Shown here in pieces: positions 26,005 to 27,538 of a DNA stretch of 64,000 nt. Made by a program: the position numbers and the translations under genes. The number at the start of each line of letters is the position of its first letter. The first letter of the stretch is position 1. Source of the stretch: Candidatus Gastranaerophilales bacterium (lineage in GTDB: Bacteria > Cyanobacteriota > Vampirovibrionia > Gastranaerophilales > Gastranaerophilaceae); assembly GCA_944325825.1 (NCBI GenBank), contig CALVBP010000001.1, positions 62,001 through 126,000 on the forward strand. Direction: 5' to 3'. A model generated the notes under the pieces. That model was given only the letters and a program-made list of their open reading frames with translations. It ran no database searches and had not been told where the DNA came from.

Positions 26005-26041
26005 AACTTCATTATAAAGGTTATTTTATTAATTAATCTGT

Positions 26042-26059
26042 AAATAAATGTAACAATTT
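26042..26059 (+). promoter_or_regulatory. Shared upstream element, copy 6
   Basis: Reads AAATAAATGTAACAATTT, sharing the exact GTAACAATTT core with copies 4 and 5. It ends 75 nt before ATG 26134, whose 26-codon frame runs into the flagellin fragment, and a TATAAA box follows at 26074. Confidence 0.4.
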
Positions 26060-26133
26060 TAACAAAAGAATGTTATAAACTTTCTAAAATGTGGAATATA
26101 AATAATATATGGAAAAGAAAAGTAAGAAGAGCG

Positions 26134-26614
26134 ATGGCAAAACTGTATTGTAAAAGTTTAAAACCGTCTATAACTCCCTCTCTGTATGTGTTTGAGACGA
26201 CGAGGGGGCTATGAGCCTGTGCCTGCGCCGGATAGTATAGTATTTCAGGTAGGGATAACATCCGACTGGTCATCACAGATAGGGGTAAGAACGTCTTTTG
26301 AACTAACGGGCTTGGAGGAGTTAAGGACATTAGGTCTGGATAATCAGGATTATTTATCAAAGATAGACAAACTTTTATCGGTAATCACCGCAAAGCAGAC
26401 AGAACTGGGTGCCGTAGAGAACAGATTAATGAGCGTACTGGAAGAGATATCAATACATTATGATAATTTGGTATCATCCCGTTCGACGTTAAGAGATGCA
26501 GATATAGCGGAAGTATCCAGTGAATATATTCGCCAGCAGATATTACAGCAGGCGAGTGCTACCCTGTTATCGACAGCGAATCAAACGCCAGCGATAGCGC
26601 TGCAGTTGATATAA
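26134..26614 (+). pseudogene. Flagellin remnant: C-terminal part only
   Basis: An open frame (26174-26614, ATG at 26186) ends with a clear flagellin C-terminus: a helix containing GAVENRLMSVLEEIS, then LRDADIAEVSSEYIRQQILQ and ASATLLSTANQTPAIALQL. This closely parallels the end of the complete flagellin at 49151 (DADVAEESSNYIQAQILQQA). No N-terminal D0/D1 region exists, so it cannot make a filament alone. A 26-codon frame from ATG 26134 (MAKLYCKSLKPSITPSLYVF) would join the fragment if one base were changed near the GGGGG run at 26204-26208. It may be a decayed second flagellin or a silent donor cassette. Confidence 0.75.
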
Positions 26615-26657
26615 TTAGTGAGTAGTGAGTAGTAGTTAAGTGAATAAGTGAATAAGT

Positions 26658-26705
26658 GAATAAGGTGTTTGTATAACCTGTCACCCTGAACTCGATTCAG
26701 GGTCT
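26658..26705. repeat. 48-nt intergenic hairpin element, copy A
   Basis: Contains ACCCTGAA-CTCGA-TTCAGGGT, an 8-bp stem with a 5-nt loop (26683-26703), preceded by GAATAAGGTGTTTGTATAACC. Confidence 0.8.
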
Positions 26706-26865
26706 ATTCAGGTTAGTGAATAGTGACTGGTGAATAGTGAGTAGTGAATGGTAAATAAGTTAATAAGATTTTTCTTCTTTTTTTCACTTACCTTAGGATA
26801 GTAAGTGAATCCGCAGGAATTTTTCGCCAGAAAAATTCAGCAGTGCGAGTTTTTCTTTCTTTGGG

Positions 26866-26910
26866 AGCGTTTCTTTCTTTTTTCATCGTAAAAAAAAAGA
26901 AAGAAATGCT
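26866..26910. repeat. Imperfect inverted repeat of about 18 bp
   Basis: The left arm is AGCGTTTCTTTCTTTTTT (26866-26883) and the right arm (26891-26910) is its near-exact complement, ending GAAAGAAATGCT. The loop is about 7 nt. A purine/pyrimidine-biased hairpin of this type can act as a terminator on either strand. Confidence 0.6.
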
Positions 26911-26929
26911 CTAAATACAAGTGAATAAG

Positions 26930-26977
26930 GAATAAGGTACTTGTATAGCCTGTCATGCTGAACTCGATTCAGCATCT
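26930..26977. repeat. 48-nt intergenic hairpin element, copy B
   Basis: 41 of 48 positions match copy A. The stem is ATGCTGAA-CTCGA-TTCAGCAT (26955-26975). The two stem positions that differ from copy A are changed on both arms, so pairing is kept. Confidence 0.8.
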
Positions 26978-27538
26978 TACCAATGTAGCGTTATGCCTGG
27001 TTTTCCGGTAAGATCCCGAAGGGGTAAATATAAGTTAGCAGGCTAGACCAACACAATAGTCCGCTTGGTATAAAAAATTCGGGATGACAACGAAATTCAG
27101 ACATCAGCCCCGATACAAAATTAACATAGATAGACTTCGCCTCGGCGGTCGGAATGACAGGGGTAAATATATTACTCAACTCCAAAATTACAATAATTAC
27201 AATAATTACCCATCGAGCCCTTACCTTGAAAGGGAAGGAATATTTTTCCCGCCCTCCCCCTCTCTCTGCCTTCTCACATAAAAAAAACCACCCGGTGTGT
27301 GTCGAGTGGGTTTTGTTTTCTGCATCCTAATGGTCTTTTTTAGTGTTTATTATCTAGGAGTTTATATGATTTTTGGGGTTTATTATTTATGCTATTTAGT
27401 GTTTCGGCTACACTTAAAGTGTGTATTATTATTATCGCACGTAAGAATTTAAAGTCAATAGGCTTATTTAAATTCATATTTACAAAACTTAATAAATGCT
27501 AAATGTCAATTATAATAACCTGTTTGGGCTTTTAAAAC

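Follow-up and report, generated by a model that had tools for sequence, protein, structure and literature searches.

The window, i.e. the whole stretch of 64,000 nucleotides analysed here, contains two hairpins that are CGTC-tagged REPs and that, judged from sequence comparison, are rather probably wings of non-autonomous CGTC REP dimers, with a unit of hairpin, GIY-YIG nuclease gene and hairpin as the candidate autonomous form. The CGTC REP family itself is known already; the presence of a GIY-YIG gene between CGTC-type hairpins is new. A census in 2013 left open what moves the CGTC superfamily, and a small GIY-YIG subfamily is now a strong candidate for its mobilising enzyme, a protein of about 100 residues whose gene adjoins matched hairpins in many phyla, hairpins that are absent from control genes. 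With a candidate enzyme and matched hairpins at hand, the question of the CGTC mover becomes directly testable in vitro.

Two superfamilies of palindromic repeats, one tagged GTAG and the other CGTC, are distinguished in the census (Di Nocera, De Gregorio and Rocco, 2013; PMC3733652). As described there, CGTC REPs carry at one end an unpaired tag, CGTC and often TGTC (or CCTC), and have a stem of 8–9 bp, in which the first and second pair are almost invariably A-T, a loop of 4–5 nt and a short unpaired tail, mostly CCA; head-to-head dimers predominate, with heterodimers in CGTC-2. The superfamily, which includes dRS3, RPE-4 and RPE-6, was found in five phyla, and its members “apparently lack a dedicated transposase” (PMC3733652). 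How well do the window hairpins agree with this description? Both copies carry the tag TGTC, and nearly all other copies TGTC or CGTC; the stem comprises 8 bp and the loop 5 nt, the first pair is A-T and the second T-A in copy 2 and C-G in copy 1; and head-to-head pairs predominate, with heterodimers in the order. Window-type hairpins end in CT(TA/AT) and not in CCA, but since the census says “most” in respect of the CCA tail, the tail is not strictly defining, and GIY-YIG elements of the ATTCCC class have CCA at the end. In common with CGTC-2 are the tag, the 8-bp stem opening with A-T, the 5-nt loop, head-to-head dimers that are mostly heterodimers, and the missing link to RAYTs, whereas the tail, the hosts (the order of the window genome and further groups) and the GIY-YIG gene between hairpins are different, the sections of the census on this family naming no enzyme (PMC3733652). 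Mosaic intergenic arrays, CGTC hairpins and in-frame insertion into ORFs (here in loci L226 and L227) are shared with dRS3 and the neisserial intergenic mosaic elements and with RPE-4 and RPE-6 of Rickettsia; their stems differ from those found here, and a nuclease gene is not reported for them in the parts of the census that treat them (PMC3733652).

The preliminary description of the window had pointed out a duplicated 48-nt hairpin with two compensatory base pairs and a fixed CTCGA loop, which was reproduced exactly. The copies at 26658–26705 and 26930–26977 agree at 41 of 48 positions, the arms being ACCCTGAA/TTCAGGGT in the former and ATGCTGAA/TTCAGCAT in the latter with stem pairs 2 and 3 changed on both arms, and the conserved core starts with the TGTC tag and comprises the 27-mers 26679–26705 and 26951–26977 (TGTC, 8-bp stem, 5-nt loop, CT). 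The hairpin that had been taken for the element is real but constitutes only half of a larger four-helix dimer. The features of the locus are:

26005–27279, no strand: lineage-specific island of 1,275 nt from the terminator to the EamA start, with repeats and a flagellin fragment
26616–26678, plus strand: short tandem repeats (GTGAATAA / TAGTGAG)
26679–26705, plus strand: copy 1, TGTC tag, 8-bp hairpin ACCCTGAA-CTCGA-TTCAGGGT and CT (DNA fold of 26679–26712, z -3.45); left wing, partner absent nearby, continuing into the short tandem repeats
26814–26929, plus strand: another dispersed repeat module, containing a long hairpin of its own (26865–26911), part of the mosaic (fold z -7.65)
26951–26977, plus strand: copy 2, hp1 of the dimer, ATGCTGAA-CTCGA-TTCAGCAT
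26951–27089, plus strand: complete CGTC-type head-to-head heterodimer of 139 nt (DNA fold z -1.97 over the whole 139 nt)
27013–27089, plus strand: hp2 of the dimer, ATCCCGAA (27013–27020), 57-nt loop, TTCGGGAT (27078–27085) and tag GACA
27115–27159, plus strand: right half of a second dimer subfamily (..AACATAGATAGACTTCGCC..GGTCGGAATGACA), without left half

DNA folding of the dimer at 26951–27089 yields a four-helix cloverleaf of the outer stem TGTC/GACA, hp1, the inner stem TCTTACC/GGTAAGA and the long-loop hp2, a form of hp2 that also occurs in loci L041, L057, L062 and L066; the second dimer subfamily is complete in loci L045, L047, L048 and L051. The tandem repeats GTGAATAA / TAGTGAG escort hairpins at many loci of the window genome. 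The flagellin fragment (26186–26614, plus strand; PF00700, E 3e-17) is C-terminal, its N-terminal part missing. Between lpxA and the island lies a small non-coding gene (27280–27458, minus strand) with the sigma-70-like promoter TTGACTTTAAATTCTTACGTGCGATAATA and a terminator, which is conserved in 7 of 8 congeneric loci and for which Rfam returned nothing even at E<=1.

Comparison with relatives indicates that the hairpin elements were inserted recently. At the island site eight congeners were compared, and in five of them the same gap measures about 14–165 nt, EamA directly following lpxA and the small non-coding gene, and the island is absent; the other three end at a contig edge or have different neighbours. 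Similarly, 11 relatives were compared at the hom–thrC interval (about 300 nt), and the dimer is missing from all eight that have a parsable, conserved gene order. At a third locus (288 nt) six of eight relatives have the same neighbours and lack the dimer, one of the six containing other repeats. Flanking target duplications, which the preliminary description had connected with a transposable palindrome, were not recognisable at the three loci with empty sites in relatives.

The hairpins are more numerous than expected by chance. Within the window GTCANNNTGAANNNNNTTCANNNTCT with at most two mismatches has three matches versus 0.33 expected, and in the window genome (1.85 Mb, 57 contigs, 95% complete) a degenerate hairpin pattern with at most three mismatches has 68 matches and the reversed control pattern none. 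The two copies first noticed are thus not the only ones, and covariation extends beyond them as well. At the three stem pairs left free by the search pattern, 53 hairpins of the window genome (159 cells) have 156 Watson-Crick pairs, no G-U pair and 3 mismatches, bearing out the earlier view that it is the structure and not the sequence that is kept; the corresponding numbers are 583, 7 and 7 for cross-phylum hairpins (597 cells) and 182, 1 and 3 for hairpins outside the selection by the search pattern. Moreover, in 25 aligned dimers 96.6% of the cells are paired, as compared with only 28–42% for control structures slid along the same dimers, and 10 pairs are changed on both sides; the covariation score of 0.233 (shuffle mean 0.099) was reached in 0 of 500 shuffles.

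Is the hairpin under selection as RNA or as DNA? Compensatory changes in the stems and the mostly intergenic location of the copies (0 of 19 inside ORFs) would suit a structured RNA element, as had been proposed initially, for instance a regulator, terminator or stability element. The near-absence of G-U pairs, however, points to a palindrome of DNA rather than to a selected RNA, Rfam covariance models gave no match on the window at the gathering threshold, and intervals bearing REPs are missing in relatives. A role as terminator or between convergent genes was likewise rejected, as convergent neighbours are not preferred (17 resolved loci: 9 codirectional, 5 divergent, 3 convergent). Selection for an RNA hairpin is therefore very improbable.

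In the dimers two unlike hairpins meet at their tails, and the tags point outward (TGTC-hp1-TCT...AGA-hp2-GACA). The ends of the spacer pair as inner stem, TCTTACC/GGTAAGA, TCTGTCC/GGACAGA or TCTATC/GATAGA, and the termini TGTCA/TGACA are inverted. A stem of 8 bp together with a loop of 5 nt was found in 219 of 232 hairpins, and hairpin pairs less than 60 nt apart are convergent in 48 cases versus 15 divergent and 8 tandem ones. Heterodimers prevail in the order, where only 1 of 74 dimers among the matches listed is a homodimer versus 15.7 expected (1 of 39 versus 7.6 when each combination is counted once per genome); across other phyla there is only a trend, with 4 of 60 homodimers versus 8.6 expected (P 0.06, not significant) and 4 of 52 per-genome combinations versus 7.2 (P 0.16). 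Heterodimers avoid one long perfect palindrome; nuclease units, by contrast, often have equal ends. Longer outer inverted arms (score >=12) flank 14 of 105 dimers versus 1.5 expected, and 11 of the 14 are not REP-derived. Insertion of dimers into pre-existing palindromes might account for these arms, but in one genome (loci L100, L138, L364 and L389) they are repeated along with the dimer and hence may belong to the element. This Bacteroidetes genome has at the four loci a common longer outer inverted repeat, ACTGAAGTTACGCA, which makes up a larger composite element. In addition, some ORFs read through a REP dimer at their start or in their interior and thereby contain peptides such as MLKQVQHD.. 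and CHPEFISGS.. (L226:216–1547, L227:376–1386, L194:2365–3399), much like the RPEs of Rickettsia.

What moves these elements? The preliminary description had likened them to palindromes of the REP type, which was correct as far as REPs are concerned, but the tag is that of the CGTC/TGTC superfamily and not that of the GTAG type linked to RAYTs. Mobilisation as ordinary REPs by RAYT (Y1/HUH) transposases, the agents suggested by that likeness, could be advocated because 21 of the 80 genomes searched in the order have RAYTs, more often the REP-rich ones (17 of 42 versus 2 of 26 REP-free genomes, P 0.005), a correlation weaker than that of the GIY-YIG nuclease. Yet no Y1 transposase was found in the window genome, and there is none in genome G049 with 317 hairpins, the highest copy number among the matches listed. 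The RAYT-type Y1 transposases of about 180 aa at L195–L224 are accompanied by canonical GTAG REPs, e.g. GTAGGTTGGGCATACTTGCCCAAC, and a TGTC hairpin was found within 200 nt of the RAYT gene at 0 of 30 loci, within 450 nt and using a loose finder at 3 of 30. A search for a transposase between hairpin pairs 0.3–4 kb apart revealed only housekeeping ORFs. RAYTs were therefore rejected as mobilisers of the TGTC hairpins, and we regard their involvement as highly unlikely.

At cross-phylum loci only 6 of 761 ORFs are flanked on both sides by a hairpin no more than 450 nt away, and two of these, from Flavobacteriaceae and Mesonia, encode homologous GIY-YIG proteins of about 100 aa. As the lead arose from these two discovery genes, both were left out of the test counts. 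The nuclease matches PF01541 with 60–65 bits (cut-off 22.6), and its catalytic residues are in place, the GIY, YIG, R, H, E and N positions being 99–100% conserved in 77 proteins. Its AlphaFold model (pLDDT 83) retrieved in Foldseek UPF0213 as best match and then weakly Slx1, a branched-DNA nuclease (E 0.035); catalytic domain and fold are thus common to the small GIY-YIG proteins of the UPF0213 fold, Slx1 and the subfamily described here. The two discovery proteins and one relative (A3) were combined into a profile, with which 80 genomes of the order, picked by hairpin count from 292 of the phylum, were searched. Scores were bimodal, and matches of at least 70 bits, the strong class, were found in 25 of 42 genomes with at least 10 hairpins, 2 of 12 with 1–5 and 2 of 26 lacking hairpins (REP-rich versus REP-free genomes, Fisher P 2.5e-5). 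The remaining 17 of the 42 REP-rich genomes are without any match of at least 70 bits, and the profile search of the window genome gave 0 matches, so that the window copies are probably relics or dependent on an enzyme since lost.

When loci are chosen by protein sequence, a hairpin is found less than 200 nt away on both sides of the gene at 45 of 80 strong GIY-YIG loci, as compared with 0 of 40 loci of weak, single-copy GIY-YIG relatives and 0 of 30 RAYT loci. Within the order 16 of 30 loci are flanked in this way, among further copies 8 of 20, and in other groups 21 of 30, or 19 of 27 after subtraction of the two discovery genes and genome G368, which is identical to G098. On any side a hairpin is present at 53 of 80 strong loci versus 1 of 70 controls, leaving 27 of 80 strong loci with none within 200 nt. 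Furthermore, 9 of 12 relatives on viral contigs, found by protein alone, have both flanks occupied within 100 nt. The 45 two-flank loci comprise 29 head-to-head, 9 tail-to-tail and 7 tandem arrangements, with the same stem on both sides in 19; the 29 head-to-head units measure 328–552 bp, most of them 343–393 bp. In many phyla the nuclease gene is thus often the spacer of a head-to-head dimer, and decayed copies of the unit are found in L287 and L306. One unit (L277:1441–1852) occupies the exact middle of a perfect palindrome whose 37-bp arms stop abruptly.

Could the dimers have multiplied without any dedicated enzyme, by replication slippage, template switching at palindromes and DNA transfer, with mutual correction of the arms producing the covariation? 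The mosaic arrays with recombination at hairpins, the scarcity of G-U intermediates and the long outer inverted repeats common to some dimers are in line with such a process, but a nuclease gene framed by hairpins across phyla is not predicted by it, and we consider it improbable. The stem class, moreover, goes with the nuclease: hairpins of the ..C.GAA class with 5-nt loops pair with one set of nucleases, those of the ATTCC[CT]GC type, with mostly 4-nt loops and dRS3-like, with another. Stem class and protein similarity correlate with a Mantel r of 0.33 (P 0.0002, n=43 loci) and, in the 28 loci outside the order alone, of 0.325 (P 0.0002), and in 34 of 43 cases a protein and its nearest neighbour share the hairpin class, versus 18.8 upon permutation. 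These and the other P-values given here are optimistic, since common descent links the genomes as well as the elements and the loci are not independent. Stem class would track nuclease sequence in this manner through joint descent of gene and ends.

GIY-YIG is a classical domain of homing nucleases, and the gene could consequently be a homing-type parasite, a passenger that entered dimers because it cuts hairpins while the dimers spread by other means. Such a parasite predicts the same association of gene and dimer and would explain the unequal copy numbers (1–5 nuclease genes versus 10–317 hairpins in genomes among the matches listed) and the existence of REP-rich genomes without the nuclease gene, including the window genome. 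Against it speak the co-variation of stem class with the nuclease, the identical stems on both flanks in 19 of 45 loci, as if gene and ends moved jointly, and the presence of the strong class tracking REP copy number. We therefore consider a passenger doubtful, though the most serious competitor of a mobilising nuclease.

How might a mobilising nuclease act? The unit of hairpin, nuclease gene and hairpin, typically 330–420 bp long, would be the autonomous element. Its nuclease may single out hairpins of its own class, or the corresponding cruciforms, and make a nick or a cut close to the tag, whereupon copying or repair would place the unit at a new site. The dimers of 60–140 nt would be derivatives borrowing the nuclease in trans, and the stem may serve the nuclease as recognition site and for that reason be preserved as a structure of the DNA. 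The arrangement resembles GTAG REPs and REPINs with their RAYTs (REPtrons) in having non-autonomous hairpin pairs and a unit in which hairpins enclose an enzyme gene; here, however, the tag is not GTAG and the enzyme is GIY-YIG and not Y1/HUH. Searches of openly accessible literature found nothing linking GIY-YIG proteins with REP or CGTC repeats. On balance the comparisons slightly favour an even wider reading, in which CGTC REPs, dRS3 and certain elements of Rickettsia among them, would be the non-autonomous tail of widespread one-gene mobile elements of about 330–420 bp, encoding a structure-specific GIY-YIG protein of about 100 aa between matched hairpins. If so, GIY-YIG nucleases would drive an independent REP system of their own beside that of RAYTs and GTAG REPs; its enzyme would be unrelated and its chemistry of transposition probably another, and dRS3 of Neisseria and the RPEs of Rickettsia may be its footprints.

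The hairpins are present in 105 of 292 sampled genomes of the phylum, all within one order, the reversed control giving none, and they were also found in records of Bacteroidota, Treponema, Patescibacteria and Elusimicrobia. A TGTC-type dimer at L083:2671–2728 lies on a contig labelled Nanoarchaeota archaeon (MAG); either an archaeon really carries it or the contig was binned wrongly.
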